A stretch of DNA of 64,000 bases from Dysgonomonas sp. PF1-14 (GTDB lineage: Bacteria > Bacteroidota > Bacteroidia > Bacteroidales > Dysgonomonadaceae): assembly GCF_029892965.1 (NCBI RefSeq), contig NZ_JARXWN010000003.1, positions 310,001 through 374,000 of the forward strand, written 5' to 3'. How positions within the stretch are numbered: position 1 is the first letter of the stretch; each line of letters begins with the position of its first letter. The notes under the pieces were generated by a model. That model had not been told where the DNA came from. It did no database searches and saw only the letters and a program-made list of their open reading frames with translations. Position numbers and translations under genes: made by a program. Positions 17,415 through 47,463 of the stretch are shown here, piece after piece.

Positions 17415-17978
17415 TTATAATATTACCGTTGTGTATCTGTCGTCATCGTCAGTCTCGCCATTGTCCTGCTGACGGATTTCGTGGGGCTGTGGGCTTGTCA
17501 CCTTATCCAGAAATTTATTCACCATCTGTGTGGAGGCTTCCACATCGGCATCTTTCGGGAATTTTAGGACAAAAGGCCTGCTGGTCTGTTCGGTTTCTTT
17601 TTGCTTTTCACGCTTCTTGTCCTGACGGTCGAGTACGAGTTTCATCACATGTGCTCCCGGTGCACGCTTGCGTTTGGTCACCACGCGGTTCTTTATTTTC
17701 TCGCCGCCCCAGCCATCGTCTTCGTAGGTGATGCGTTCGGTAACTTCTATGTAGCCTTCGAGCTGGTCGCGCAGGGAGTGGCGCACAAGGGTGGCAAGGG
17801 CTTCGTCGCGGCGGTCTTCGGCTTCTTCTATGGCTCGGCGGAAATCGCTACGGGTTTTCTTCCAATCGTAGAAGGTTTTGGTAGTCAGTTTCAGGGTTCT
17901 GCAAATTTCGGTGATGGTGTAGCTGTCCTGTTCTATCAGTTTTACTATTTTTTCAACAAGTCTATCGCTGTATTTCAT
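17415..17978 (-). CDS. HTH protein resembling phage terminase small subunit
   Basis: A 187-residue protein starting MKYSDRLVEKIVKLIEQDSYT. Residues 1-45 form a helix-turn-helix (ITEICRTLKLTTKTFYDWKKT) like those of terminase small subunits and transposase-type HTH domains. A charged helical region follows (EEAEDRRDEALATLVRHSLRDQLEGY), then a basic segment (VVTKRKRAPGAHVMKLVLDRQDKKREKQKE) and an acidic tail. No large terminase or other phage gene is near, so packaging is unlikely; a DNA-binding regulatory role is inferred. The paralogue at 44893-45555 shares the same layout (KYSEELVER, ITQICKDLHIGRQAFYNWMED, MERRDETL). Upstream, 195 bp away and divergent, is a small-RNA gene; the paralogue has the same arrangement at 190 bp. 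Confidence 0.72.
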   Translation of the reverse strand: MKYSDRLVEKIVKLIEQDSYTITEICRTLKLTTKTFYDWKKTRSDFRRAIEEAEDRRDEALATLVRHSLRDQLEGYIEVTERITYEDDGWGGEKIKNRVVTKRKRAPGAHVMKLVLDRQDKKREKQKETEQTSRPFVLKFPKDADVEASTQMVNKFLDKVTSPQPHEIRQQDNGETDDDDRYTTVIL

Positions 17979-18148: not shown

Positions 18149-18180
18149 ATGTTTTATAACATAAAAATGTCATATCTTTG
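18149..18180 (+). promoter_or_regulatory. Small-RNA promoter (copy 1) with palindrome over the -33 position
   Basis: The palindrome ATGTTTTATAACAT (18149-18162) is followed by the -7 element TATCTTTG (18173-18180). The same palindrome and spacing occur before copy 2 (44117-44148), and the palindrome with two more bases before copy 3 (45721-45752). Its position over the -33 region suggests an operator as well as a promoter; that is inference. Confidence 0.7.
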
Positions 18181-18184
18181 TACT

Positions 18185-18256
18185 GTGTTTTTCATGGTAT
18201 TAGATTTAAGGTTAACAATGAAGATTGGTTGTCGTGATGACAACCTTTTCTTTTTT
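18185..18256 (+). ncRNA. Small RNA, copy 1, with intrinsic terminator
   Basis: A transcript of about 72 nt is predicted from the start point after TATCTTTG to a terminator made of stem GGTTGTC/GACAACC (18227-18233 and 18239-18245, loop GTGAT) followed by TTTTCTTTTTT. The region from the promoter to the T-tract is nearly identical in two further copies (44153-44224 and 45757-45827), while flanking DNA differs. The layout (Bacteroidetes promoter, short conserved transcript, terminator) fits the description of the Rfam Bacteroidales-1 RNA motif, but I could not test that. An in-frame 22-codon reading from the ATG at 18194 runs through the terminator and is probably incidental. Confidence 0.75.
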
Positions 18257-18353
18257 ATATAACTTTCTTCTCCACTTTCATTTCTCCACTTATCCTTCCT
18301 TAATATAAGTCATATCGTACGACTCAGTATAATCTAAAAATGTTCTAATTATC

Positions 18354-42809: not shown

Positions 42810-44066
42810 ATGGAATTAGTTTATGCGGCAGTGATTCTTGTACTGGCCATCGTTGTTATCTTCTTTCTACAAAGAGGTAGTAAGCAACGTGAGCAGGATT
42901 TTAAAAGTCGGATCGATCATCTGTCGGAAGAGAAAGAGTCCTTACAAAACGAAAAGATAGATCACATTCGCAAACTGGCCGAATCAAAAGCTATGTTGCA
43001 GTCTAAAGAAGAACAACTGCGAGTACAGCAAGAAGAGCTACTCAATACCCGAGCCCAGCTGAATAAAGATTTTCAGATTCTGGCAAATCAGATACTCGAA
43101 GAAAAGACGCATCGCTTTACTGATGTGAACAAGGCGAATATGGAAGCTATACTCAAGCCGCTCAATGAGAAACTGGTAGAGTTCCGAACAAAGGTAGAAG
43201 AGACTTACGACAAGGAGTCGAAGCAACGCTTTTCGCTCGAAGAACGCATAAAAGATCTTGTGGCCCTGAACAACCAGATCAGTGAAGATGCTAATAATCT
43301 GACCAGAGCACTGAAGGGTAATAACAAGGTGCAGGGTAACTGGGGCGAAATGATTCTCGAGTCCATACTTGAAAAATCGGGACTAAAGAAAGGTGAGGAA
43401 TATTTTCTGCAAGAGTTTATCACAGACGAAAACGGAAAGCGTGTGCAAAATGAGCAGCAGAAATATATGCAGCCCGATGTGGTGGTGGCCTATCCGGGAG
43501 GACGTAAAATTGTGATCGACTCTAAGGTCTCTCTCAATGCTTATGTCAAGTATGTGGAGGCACAGACCGACGATGTAAAGAACGTTGCCGAAAAAGAGCA
43601 TCTGGTCTCTATCAGGCAGCATATAGACGAACTCAGCCAGAAATCGTATCAGGACTATGTAGACTCCCTCGAATTTGTAATGATGTTCGTGCCCAACGAA
43701 CCGGCTTATATACTGGCTATGCAGGCCGATTCGTCGCTTTGGGACTATGCCTATCGTAAACGAATCCTGCTGATAAGCCCGACCAACCTGATAGCCTCAC
43801 TGAAAGTTGTTGCTGACTTGTGGAAGCGCGAATATCAAAGCCGTAATGCCATAGAGATAGCCAAACGTGGAGCGGCCCTGTACGATAAGTTTGCCGGTTT
43901 TGTAGATACCCTTCAGGATGTAGGTAAAAACATAGAGCGTTCGCAAAAAGCATACGATAAAGCTTTCTCGCAGTTGAAAGATGGTAACGGTAATCTGATC
44001 CGTCAGGCAGAGATGCTTAAAGAGCTGGGTGTGAAAGCTCAGAAGGAATTACCTGAGAGTGATTAA
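42810..44066 (+). CDS. rmuC: DNA recombination protein RmuC
   Basis: A 418-residue protein with one N-terminal membrane helix (LVYAAVILVLAIVVIFFLQ), a long coiled coil (30-140) and a PD-(D/E)xK-like RmuC domain. Landmarks are NWGEMILESILEKSGLKKGEEYFLQEF (near 180), QPDVVVAYPGGRKIVIDSKVSLNAY (near 222) and the closing SPTNLIASLKVVADLWKREYQSRNA. RmuC restrains inversions at short repeats in E. coli. It is of interest beside the repeat-rich region that follows. A single gene; the first direct repeat starts 11 bp after its stop. Confidence 0.94.
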   Translation: MELVYAAVILVLAIVVIFFLQRGSKQREQDFKSRIDHLSEEKESLQNEKIDHIRKLAESKAMLQSKEEQLRVQQEELLNTRAQLNKDFQILANQILEEKTHRFTDVNKANMEAILKPLNEKLVEFRTKVEETYDKESKQRFSLEERIKDLVALNNQISEDANNLTRALKGNNKVQGNWGEMILESILEKSGLKKGEEYFLQEFITDENGKRVQNEQQKYMQPDVVVAYPGGRKIVIDSKVSLNAYVKYVEAQTDDVKNVAEKEHLVSIRQHIDELSQKSYQDYVDSLEFVMMFVPNEPAYILAMQADSSLWDYAYRKRILLISPTNLIASLKVVADLWKREYQSRNAIEIAKRGAALYDKFAGFVDTLQDVGKNIERSQKAYDKAFSQLKDGNGNLIRQAEMLKELGVKAQKELPESD

Positions 44067-44077
44067 TTGATAATTAT

Positions 44078-44226
44078 GTTAATAAACATTAAATATATAA
44101 AGAAAAACAGCAAAACATGTTTTATAACATAAAAATATTATATCTTTGTACTGTGTTTTTCATGGTATTAGATTTAAGGTTAACAATGAAGATTGGTTGT
44201 CGTGATGACAACCTTTTCTTTTTTAT
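44078..44226. repeat. Direct repeat, left copy (149 bp), containing the small-RNA gene
   Basis: This sequence matches 45682-45829 over about 148 bp with few differences, same orientation. It comprises about 60 bp of AT-rich upstream DNA, the promoter with its palindrome, and the small-RNA gene to its terminator. The two copies bracket the segment that carries the unknown gene (44248-44814) and the HTH pseudogene (44893-45555). Confidence 0.85.
44153..44224 (+). ncRNA. Small RNA, copy 2
   Basis: Same architecture as copy 1: palindrome ATGTTTTATAACAT (44117-44130), TATCTTTG (44141-44148), conserved body and terminator stem GGTTGTC/GACAACC (44195-44201 and 44207-44213) with TTTTCTTTTTT. It lies between rmuC and the unknown gene 44248-44814, which converges on it. 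Confidence 0.75.
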
Positions 44227-44247
44227 ATAACTTCCTTTTTCTACATT

Positions 44248-44814
44248 TCATAAAACCTTATGTACTATAACTGTTTTCCCCTTGTCAAACTGCTTTGCTG
44301 CTTTTATCAGACAGGAATCTTTACAATAAGTTATTATTTCATCAATAAATTTAGTTCCCACTTCTTCAGGTAAAATAAAGCTTTCAAAGGCTATTTTAAT
44401 ATCCAGTATCGGAAACGAATACGGCGGAATGTAACCTATCTCTCCCCAATAAAGTTTTTTCAATACAGTATTATTATCTGACATGCTTATGAAATCTGAT
44501 TGAGTGGGGAAGAATGCAGGACTTAGAAAAAAGCAGTTGCGGATAGGTTCTATAGAATGATAGTTCAGGAAGTAGCTTAATTTCTCGTTTTCAGACAGGT
44601 TACCTGACTCAATCTTTTGTCTGGCATCTACTCTGATTATTTTATGCCATTCTTTATCTTCTTTCGGAAGCATATATTCCAACTCTTCGTCGTGGCTGTA
44701 TTCATCGATTATCCTTAGATATTCATCTTTCAGACTTTCAAATTCAGGCTTCTCCTCCGCTGTAACTTTGCTGTTTACTATTATAAATGCCATTTCTACA
44801 ATTCTGTCCTCCAT
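44248..44814 (-). CDS. Hypothetical protein between the small-RNA direct repeats
   Basis: A 188-residue protein that I do not recognise. It is acidic, starts MEDRIVEMAFIIVNSK, and contains Pro- and aromatic-rich segments (FFLSPAFFPTQSDF and WGEIGYIPPYSFPILDIKIAFESF). There is no signal peptide and no membrane helix. Its neighbours are the HTH pseudogene upstream on the same strand (78 bp) and a convergent small-RNA gene downstream. Its location within the direct-repeat segment suggests it entered together with the HTH gene. Confidence 0.6.
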   Translation of the reverse strand: MEDRIVEMAFIIVNSKVTAEEKPEFESLKDEYLRIIDEYSHDEELEYMLPKEDKEWHKIIRVDARQKIESGNLSENEKLSYFLNYHSIEPIRNCFFLSPAFFPTQSDFISMSDNNTVLKKLYWGEIGYIPPYSFPILDIKIAFESFILPEEVGTKFIDEIITYCKDSCLIKAAKQFDKGKTVIVHKVL

Positions 44815-44892
44815 GCTCTTATAGTTTATATTTGTTTAAGGAATATATGTTTTTAAAGATAAAACTAAACTTTCATTTATTGCACTCGGAAG

Positions 44893-45555
44893 TCAAAACT
44901 TTACAAACTTGACACTTTTTCTGATATTTTCTACTGTTGCTCTTTTTCGTTTTCTCATATCCAGTTTTGTTTGTGCAGGCTGTTTTATGGTTGGCGTGTT
45001 ACTCTTTTCCGTAGCAGGGATACTTTGCTTATTACTTATTACAATATTGTTTCGTGTAGGCTCTTCTGTACTTTCGGCATTATCGCTATTTGTATTTTCA
45101 ATATTGGATTCCGCCACATCTTCTATATTATGTGAAGTCTCTCTTTCTGCTTTTTACAGGAGTAGGGGATAGGGCTGCTTTTTTCTTGTCGTTGCGATCC
45201 AATAACATCTTTATGGTTTTAAGGTCGGGCTGATACTCTTTTTTTATGATTACTTTCTGTTTAAATATCAAATTTGTCGTATTATCCATGTCGGGTACAT
45301 AAATATCTTTTTCTATTACCGTTGTATATCCTTCCAGTTTTCTCTTTATAGAAGAATATACTGTTGCCATCAACGTCTCGTCTCTGCGTTCCATAGCGCT
45401 TTTTACCATTTCTTTAAATCCCTTTTTATCTTCCATCCAGTTGTAGAATGCCTGTCTGCCGATGTGCAAATCCTTACATATCTGTGTTATCGATAATAAT
45501 TCGTCCTCCATCAACAAAGTGATCTTTCTACTAATTCTTCACTATACTTTGCCAT
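44893..45555 (-). pseudogene. Frameshifted HTH gene, paralogue of 17415-17978
   Basis: The start MAKYSEELVERS (ATG at 45555) matches the intact paralogue (MKYSDRLVEK), then a stop follows. The HTH part (LLMEDELLSITQICKDLHIGRQAFYNWMED) continues in another frame, consistent with loss of one base near 45521-45529. A second shift occurs in the T5 run (A5 on the coding strand) at 45151-45155; correcting it joins the basic region (KTIKMLLDRNDKKKAALSPTPVK) to the acidic C-terminal reading AERETSHNIEDVAESN and on to KSVKFVKF. The repaired protein would be about 220 residues. Two shifts favour a decayed gene, but sequencing errors in homopolymers are possible. Confidence 0.75.
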
Positions 45556-45756
45556 AATCTTACAATTTACTGTGTTTTCTGTATGGATAAAAGAAAAACC
45601 CGACATGCAGATTTTTAACAGAATAATGATAAGAATACACATTTGTTGCTTCAGCAAGGTGGCAGATTATCTTACATTGTAGTTAATAAATATTAAATAT
45701 GTAAAGAAAAACAGTGAAACATGTTTTATAACATAAAAATATCGTATCTTTGTACT

Positions 45757-45827
45757 GTGTTTTTCATGGTATTAGATTTAAGGTTAACAATGAAGATTGG
45801 TTGTCGTGATGACAACCTTTTCTTTTT
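45757..45827 (+). ncRNA. Small RNA, copy 3
   Basis: Promoter TATCTTTG at 45745-45752; the body is nearly identical to copies 1 and 2; terminator stem GGTTGTC/GACAACC (45799-45805 and 45811-45817) followed by TTTTCTTTTT. The distance from its -7 element to the divergent HTH start is 190 bp, compared with 195 bp for copy 1. Downstream is the GT39 gene on the same strand with its own promoter. Confidence 0.75.
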
Positions 45828-45850
45828 ATAAGAAATCGGATTAATCCTGC

Positions 45851-45858
45851 TATATTTG
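45851..45858 (+). promoter_or_regulatory. -7 element TATATTTG for the GT39 gene
   Basis: An exact TAnnTTTG match 28 bp before the ATG at 45887; it supports that ATG as the real start of the frameshifted gene. Confidence 0.6.
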
Positions 45859-45886
45859 CAACTTATCTTAAACAAACATTAAACAT

Positions 45887-47463
45887 ATGTACGAGAAATT
45901 AGACAATCTATCGAAAAGAAATACTATAATTCTTTTTTTGTCATTTTTCCTGTTTTCCGCTATATTATATTCCTATGCCGTTTGCACTATGGGATCGAAC
46001 ATTATTCTCGACGAATTGTATTAATAGCCCTGGCCGATTATTCGTTCGGTGAGATATACAATCTGACAGCCCGCGATGTACATCCTCCTCTCTTTTACTG
46101 GCTGTTGAAAATAGTGGCATATCCGATGGATATTCAGCATACTGCTCTCTATCAATATCACTATATTACGGCATTTTTCTACCTCATATCCATCATTATT
46201 TGTGCTTTCCCTGTAAGAAGGCTGTTTGGGACTGGGATTGCATTCCTTACTGCGGTCATCATTGTCCTTCTTCCGGTAGCATTATATCTGTACGCCTATG
46301 TGCGGATGTATTCCCTTATGGTTCCTTTGATGCTCGGTATGTTTATATATGTGTGCGATACATATAAGAATAATACCCTGTGGTCGTGGGTGAAGCTGTT
46401 TATATTCGCTCTGGCTGCCATGTACACGCATTATTATGCGCTGCTGGGAGCATTTTGGCTGCTGGCTCTCTACGGCGTATTGTTGGTTGTCGTATCTTCT
46501 AAAAACAAGGAATACAAGTCTCATTTGAAGCATTATCTGATACTTGGCGGCATGCTGGTCGTTTGCTATATTCCTTGGTTATTTGAGTTATATAACCAGA
46601 TGGTTGCTGTGGACAAAAGTTACTGGATCAGCCCTCCCGCACTGAAAGAAGTGATTTACTCGCTGCAATATTATTTTTCACCAAAACATTATGAAGAACC
46701 GTACTCTGAATTTTTCTCTTCATCGTGGCCGCTCATAATCACTTACTCGGCATTTATAAGTTCTGTTTTGATTATTCTTTGCGGATTACTTATCAGAGCC
46801 GATAAAGAAAAGAAATTGCTGGGCTTGCTGGCCTTATCGGCTATTGTCGTTACAGTTGGTTTTATACTTATATATTCATTCCTTGCCAGTCCTGTATTCT
46901 ATGTCCGTTATCTGAGCTGCTTCATCGGGTGGTTTGCCCTTTGTTGTGCAATCTTTATATCCATCATTCTCAAGGATGGGAAAAAATGGCAGAAGAGTAT
47001 TGTTATAGTGTTCTTTAGCTGCTTTCTGTTCTTATCAGGTACATGTTATTACTTAAATGAAGTGAGGCGGAGCTGGTCTAATCCCGATAGAGAAAAAGAG
47101 GAAAGTGCGAAGATGAGAGAATACATGAAAGATACTAACGGCGTTATGTATTCCGAAGAAATCATGGCTCCCAATCTGGCGTTGCTGTCGATGTTCTATC
47201 CGGAATATAAATACAGAGTAATAGATGATGGAATACTTCCTCCGGAAATACCTTATATACCTGACTACAAGAACGATCCGTATGCTTTAGCTCCATTCAG
47301 GCATCTGAAAGCCGTTCCGGAAGTAGAGGTAGATGAATATGGTATTTATGTAACTACCTTCCCCGAAAGTGTCGCCCGCATACTGGGACCCGATTACGAA
47401 GTAGTTAGCCATCTGGAAGGTTCTATGCTCTATAAATTCAAAAAGAAAGAGCCTGCTGAATAA
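45887..47463 (+). pseudogene. GT39-type membrane glycosyltransferase, one frameshift
   Basis: The gene starts MYEKLDNLSKRNTIILFLSF, with a first membrane helix and then MGSNIILDELY, where the acidic LDE lies in the first periplasmic loop that holds the catalytic acid of GT39/ArnT/PMT-type enzymes. A stop follows at 46022-46024. The rest is open in the next frame (ALADYSFGEIYNLTARDVHPPLFYWLLKI onward, many membrane helices) to 47463. Insertion of one base near 46020 restores an intact protein of about 525 residues. It would transfer sugars from polyprenyl phosphate at the periplasmic face. It is either disabled here or carries a sequencing error. Confidence 0.78.

Follow-up and report, generated by a model that had tools for sequence, protein, structure and literature searches.

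Three FopS small-RNA genes of a Dysgonomonas genome and two putative control sites in FopS promoters of Bacteroidales

The three fopS genes and their family

Three short, near-identical segments are present in the 64,000-nucleotide stretch of the Dysgonomonas sp. PF1-14 genome that was analysed here (the window; contig NZ_JARXWN010000003.1, positions 310,001 to 374,000). Judged by covariance search, the segments are genes, paralogous to each other, for the small RNA FopS. They match Rfam family RF04319 with 81.4, 81.4 and 80.7 bits for copies 1, 2 and 3 (gathering score 56 bits; E-values from 2.1e-10 to 2.8e-10), the whole 71-position model is covered, and no other Rfam family reaches its gathering score in the window. 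The features of the three loci, together with a protein-coding neighbour that is not part of the sRNA, are as follows.

18149..18162, no strand: dyad ATGTTTTATAACAT of copy 1, at -36 to -23, putative operator; conserved in class P promoters (defined below)
18173..18180, plus strand: -7 element TATCTTTG of copy 1, sigma-ABfr type; TAnnTTTG at -12 in 84/84 class P promoters
18185..18257, plus strand: fopS copy 1, sRNA gene; RF04319, 81.4 bits
18227..18256, plus strand: intrinsic terminator of copy 1 (7-bp stem, GTGAT loop, T-tract); covariance match and folding
42810..44066, plus strand: rmuC, gene before copy 2; Pfam PF02646, same neighbour in other loci
44079..44092, plus strand: box TTAATAAACATTAA of copy 2, at -74, one mismatch, putative activator site; family-wide box
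44117..44130, no strand: dyad ATGTTTTATAACAT of copy 2, putative operator; sequence comparison
44141..44148, plus strand: -7 element TATCTTTG of copy 2, sigma-ABfr type; basis as for copy 1
44153..44225, plus strand: fopS copy 2, sRNA gene that closely follows rmuC; RF04319, 81.4 bits
44195..44224, plus strand: intrinsic terminator of copy 2; covariance match
45683..45696, plus strand: box TTAATAAATATTAA of copy 3, at -74, one mismatch, putative activator site; family-wide box
45721..45734, no strand: dyad ATGTTTTATAACAT of copy 3, putative operator; sequence comparison
45745..45752, plus strand: -7 element TATCTTTG of copy 3, sigma-ABfr type; basis as for copy 1
45757..45829, plus strand: fopS copy 3, sRNA gene; RF04319, 80.7 bits
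45799..45828, plus strand: intrinsic terminator of copy 3; covariance match

A first-pass annotation of the sequence had placed the segments correctly to within one or two bases and described a nearly constant core within differing flanks, and ungapped pairwise comparison agrees with it. The 73-nt bodies are identical at 73, 71 and 71 of 73 positions and the stretch from the dyad to -1 at 34 of 36 in each pair, with only 30, 32 and 54 identities in the 100 bases upstream and 37, 38 and 32 in the 100 bases downstream; copies 2 and 3 are the closer pair upstream because some similarity there is common to both. The order of elements is the same in each copy: ATGTTTTATAACAT, then TATCTTTG, then the body, which ends 3' with GGTTGTC-GTGAT-GACAACC and a T-tract, the terminator hairpin expected of FopS. 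By sequence, these are stand-alone sRNA genes, each with its own promoter and terminator, as had been proposed. The 14 letters of ATGTTTTATAACAT, described earlier as a palindrome, are indeed unchanged among the copies, but the palindrome is imperfect, with 5-bp arms flanking a 4-nt middle. With up to three mismatches, the 18-mer ACATGTTTTATAACATAA, which includes the dyad and its edges, occurs at exactly three sites in the window, which are the three copies (0.23 expected; none of 100 shuffles gave three). Relative to the sigma-ABfr pattern (TTTG at -33, TAnnTTTG at -7), the copies possess a perfect -7 element, and the dyad occupies the -33 region. In the predicted fold of copy 1 the 5' seed is nearly unpaired in the centroid structure and forms weak 5' pairs in the minimum-energy one.

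Two other families of the Bacteroidales were weighed. Membership in the Bacteroidales-1 motif family (RF01693; PMC2864571), suggested by the first-pass annotation from the layout, has practically no probability, since the covariance model of that family, with which the bacterial order is the only common trait, produced nothing in the window that reached its gathering score and nothing at E<=10 over 44000-45900, the region of copies 2 and 3. GibS (RF04182; PMC7366714) has the start of its R1 seed in common with FopS, and all three copies align to it weakly (43.2-44.5 bits); these scores miss its cut-off of 115 bits, and GibS is described in the available part of that report as a longer RNA with a second seed and a PM2 promoter. 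Moreover, six gibS promoters (GAACAAA ... GTTATAT) contain neither the dyad nor TAnnTTTG, whereas the window copies contain the dyad and TATCTTTG; the chance that these genes are gibS is negligible. PM2 is characterized in the same source, as far as it is available, as a "near-palindromic" promoter motif, and an identity of the dyad with PM2 was considered and rejected: as the six Bacteroides gibS promoters lack the dyad, along with TAnnTTTG at -12, the dyad is not PM2 as found at gibS. Two fopS copies elsewhere in the Dysgonomonas genome (L005 and L006, near 1501-1574, contigs C2 and C8) have GTTAATATTAT instead of TAnnTTTG, loosely reminiscent of gibS promoters; a PM2-like assignment was not retained for them, the resemblance being loose and the scoring class "other".

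FopS also occurs in relatives of the host. Seven copies score above the cut-off in the host's own genome; of 101 genomes from its family, 99 have at least one such copy, as do 58 of the 295 sampled across the order. In the available part of PMC11697453, FopS is reported from Bacteroidaceae, with 14 copies in Bacteroides thetaiotaomicron, 12-15 in other Bacteroides and a FopS sequence in a phage. The Dysgonomonas genes resemble those RNAs in the match to the whole model, the 5' seed, the terminator, the -7 element TAnnTTTG and the multicopy state, and differ from them in host (here of Dysgonomonas type) and in number (seven here, as against 12-15 per Bacteroides genome). FopS is thus placed in genomes outside Bacteroidaceae, where clustered copies are common: four matches lie within 1.85 kb in one relative and three within 0.7 kb in another, and therefore three copies in 28 kb, which had been singled out as notable, are not special. 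In the literature searched, no paper centred on FopS other than PMC11697453 was found; the available part of PMC12119571 mentions it once.

A dyad in one of two promoter classes

The upstream regions of 166 distinct FopS matches were compared (7 from the own genome, 72 from the family and 87 from the order), picked from the listed best-scoring matches and not drawn at random. When the best match to ATGTT-N4-AACAT is sought in -46..-14, the mismatch numbers are bimodal, with 84 promoters at zero or one (class P), only 5 at two, and 77 at three or more (class C). The dyad ATGTTnTAnAACAT over -36 to -23 is therefore the mark of one of two FopS promoter classes in Bacteroidales, represented by 84 of the 166 sampled promoters. 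In the order sample it is in place with at most one mismatch in 38 of 87 promoters, compared with 1 of 87 for a control stretch at -110..-78. The logo core of class P is ATGTTtTAtAACATAA, in which inner positions one and four are the most variable, and the start of the dyad ranges from -33 to -38. TTTG or TTG at the -33 place is absent from 69 of 84 class P promoters and present in 67 of 77 of class C. Among the matches listed, the dyad accompanies FopS in records titled, among others, Bacteroides, Phocaeicola, Parabacteroides, Dysgonomonas, Porphyromonas, Paludibacter, Coprobacter, Muribaculaceae and Candidatus Azobacteroides.

The specificity of the dyad depends on its context and length. 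In combination with the -7 element, it gave 40 matches in 25 Dysgonomonas-group genomes (20 of the 25 have at least one) and the reversed pattern gave none; for 30 of these 40 the loci were at hand, and 29 run into a FopS body, the remaining one being without FopS. An 18-bp form of the dyad, TTATGTTnTAnAACATAA, occurs without mismatch exactly once per genome in six of six Bacteroides genomes, always at fopS. Each of these genomes contains 11-16 matches to the FopS model at E<=0.001, gibS counted; they were reached via loci of B. faecis, B. congonensis, B. bouchesdurhonensis, B. fragilis, B. clarus and B. faecalis. Allowing one mismatch adds four sites in two of the genomes, and the reversed pattern has three sites. 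Among 30 Bacteroides fopS promoters with loci, 5 are of class P, 24 of class C and one in between. Whereas the 18-bp form marks a single fopS per genome in the six Bacteroides, all three window copies bear the dyad near -30, with 1, 2 and 2 mismatches to the 18-bp form.

By itself, the 14-bp dyad is unspecific in the own genome: six of nine exact sites lie away from fopS, and at up to one mismatch there are 48 matches on both strands versus 40 for the reversed pattern. The genes next to the exact sites elsewhere in this genome are unrelated and reveal no regulon; one of them, starting MIKVGINGFGRIGRLVFRAA, resembles GAPDH by its motif. At one locus (L183, 1501-1514) an exact 14-bp dyad lies just downstream of TACCTTTG, ahead of a GAPDH-like gene, and at two further loci away from fopS (L178 and L182, ~1501-1610) the dyad is followed by GTGTGCGCACACATATTG.

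The symmetry, the place, the specificity and the variable spacing of the dyad suggest an operator, a reading to which we give an even chance. Another explanation takes the dyad for a variant -33 region, conserved as a part of the core promoter that RNA polymerase needs. Its left arm falls at about the position of the -33 element, and most class P promoters do without the usual TTTG or TTG there; yet both arms are conserved symmetrically, over 14 bp and beyond, the distance from the dyad to the -7 element shifts by several bp, and the mismatch-free 18-bp form is confined to one promoter per genome in the six Bacteroides. This explanation consequently appears rather unlikely. If the dyad serves as an operator, its overlap with the core promoter and its start, variable between -33 and -38, are best accounted for by a repressor; such variation suits occlusion better than a phased activator. 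Judging from sequence only, a DNA-binding protein, most likely a repressor, would act on the dyad and set when class P fopS is made. No regulator gene beside fopS was found to be common to the six Bacteroides class P copies, for which flanks of 1.5 kb were inspected. A likeness of the dyad to Zur boxes, whose spacing differs, is not claimed here. The terms "palindrom-", "inverted repeat" and "operator" are absent from the available main text of PMC11697453.

Genomic neighbourhood, history and predicted action

Copy 2 starts 86 bases past the stop codon of rmuC. Among class P copies, 11 of 23 from the family loci and 20 of 129 from the named loci have the end of an rmuC gene no more than 500 bases upstream; the two sets have genomes in common. 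In Bacteroides, the class P copy is preceded by a SAM-dependent methyltransferase gene in six of six genomes and followed by a nucleoside symporter gene in five of six, Pfam having been run on one of the six loci. Among the 129 class P copies in named loci, 40 have the methyltransferase upstream, 20 rmuC, 2 the symporter only and 67 none of these, a count in which some flanks may be too short to tell. Class P was found in none of 20 viral FopS copies. The synteny of class P copies therefore points to a long-established locus from which further copies have also arisen, and not only to a passenger. Copy 2 would be the old syntenic gene beside rmuC, and copies 1 and 3 paralogues that have retained the dyad.

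These data bear on the alternative that the window genes form a mobile RNA cassette of recent spread instead of a maintained regulatory family. Near-identical copies in unlike flanks, the clustering of FopS, its occurrence in phage contigs and plasmid records, and the fact that copies 1 and 3 each have a divergent neighbour from a multi-copy family of terminase-like HTH genes are all compatible with such a cassette. Nevertheless, copy 2 follows rmuC as at other loci, the Bacteroides class P copy keeps its methyltransferase neighbour throughout, the viral copies examined lack class P, and 11 of the 13 HTH matches in the own genome are not beside fopS, which together make a mobile cassette very improbable. 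Confinement to mobile elements, the outcome that the first-pass annotation had named as contradicting its reading, is likewise not what the rmuC-linked copies show.

The HTH genes, which resemble terminase small subunits, lie at 17415-17978 and 45128-45517, both on the minus strand; they are related to each other and divergent from fopS copies 1 and 3, and the reading frame of the second is broken. Four of the 13 family matches in the own genome are 97-100% identical. As a candidate regulator acting on the dyad this protein was rejected, the family being dispersed and multi-copy in Dysgonomonas and absent from the 1.5-kb flanks of the six Bacteroides class P copies.

Several viral contigs contain only the seed part of FopS. 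In one (L155, 3818-3922, minus strand), the 29-nt seed pattern starts 3 nt past the end of a tRNA-Arg(tct) and is followed by what by eye is a terminator-like hairpin; as the seed adjoins the tRNA, processing of the latter may give rise to the seed's 5' end. Four others (L160, L170, L171 and L173) keep the 29-nt pattern with a different terminator-like hairpin, and a second hairpin can be discerned by eye just before the pattern, where TAnnTTTG would be. The possibility that such matches are antisense sponges was discarded, as the flanks display a terminator-like hairpin on the sRNA strand.

According to the available part of PMC11697453, FopS of B. thetaiotaomicron is bound by the protein RbpB and induced by bile salts; its seed pairs at the start codon of susC and blocks translation, a block that RbpB relieves. 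The match to this family, which acts in trans in B. thetaiotaomicron, agrees with the trans-acting RNA family foreseen by the first-pass annotation. The equivalent pairing was examined in silico by folding the first 44 nt of FopS against the -35 to +25 regions of SusC-type genes of the own genome (30 of the 33 genes over the cut-off, the remaining three being without a locus). The hybrid energies had a median of -16.6 with these regions and of -12.0 with 59 other genes of the window (Mann-Whitney p=3e-4). The SusC median was out of reach for all 300 letter-shuffled and all 200 dinucleotide-shuffled seeds, whereas 164 of 200 letter-shuffled seeds reached the window-gene median. Pairing with SusC start regions, a trait of FopS, is thus found here in silico. 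The energies range from -24.8 to -7.3 for the best start of each gene, and individual targets are uncertain because the start codons were set by a simple longest-ATG-frame rule.

From the action of FopS in a relative and this pairing analysis, we infer that the window FopS RNAs act on SusC mRNAs; the FopS identity and the seed action of the three genes, taken jointly, are highly probable. Each fopS would most likely be transcribed from its own sigma-ABfr-type promoter, with the G of GTGTTTTTC as predicted start, and yield an RNA of about 70 nt made up of a mostly single-stranded 5' seed and an intrinsic terminator. By analogy with B. thetaiotaomicron, the seed would pair with the start-codon region of SusC-type mRNAs from polysaccharide utilization loci (PULs) and hinder ribosome entry, and an RRM-1 protein (RbpB) would counter this action; the own genome encodes two proteins of the RRM-1 class, to which RbpB belongs. 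In a gut relative, FopS shuts down the production of sugar importers and puts a brake on the uptake of glycans.

A direct repeat near -75 and putative two-site control

Further upstream, a box, gTTAAAnnanGTTAAa, is common to both promoter classes; its two halves are spaced by one helical turn. When TTAAAN5TTAA is sought in -95..-50, the best match has at most two mismatches and a start from -76 to -74 in 70 of the 84 promoters of class P and in 61 of the 77 of class C. With at most one mismatch and anywhere in that range, the box is found in 67 of 84 and 45 of 77, respectively, compared with 8% and 6% of shuffles. Among promoters with TTTG-N18..21-TAnnTTTG within the loci supplied, a box with at most one mismatch is present at -76 to -73 in 29 of 48 FopS promoters and in 0 of 90 others. 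In the window, copies 2 and 3 have the box; copy 1 is without it, its best match having three mismatches. Because it is a direct repeat at a near-fixed distance and specific to FopS, the box is read as an activator site; at copies 2 and 3 it would be a second site besides the dyad, most likely for an activator.

The regulator of FopS is given as "unknown" in the available part of PMC11697453. The two elements suggest two-site control of FopS across Bacteroidales, so far unreported, which we regard as an evenly balanced proposition. The dyad (core ATGTTnTAnAACAT; in Bacteroides the 18 bp TTATGTTnTAnAACATAA) would be bound by a dedicated DNA-binding protein in one ancient fopS class, which the own genome would have amplified, and a second factor, possibly a response regulator of the OmpR/PhoB type, would act on the 10-bp-period repeat near -75 of both classes; the sites would then provide a handle on the regulator by which bile or envelope stress switches on FopS. 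FopS itself is already known, and these promoter elements are the new part. The two conserved elements could serve as direct bait for the FopS regulator, the full dyad being present at one fopS promoter per genome in the six Bacteroides. When all three elements are required together, 28 matches are obtained in the genus, 7 of them not FopS and the other 21 FopS.
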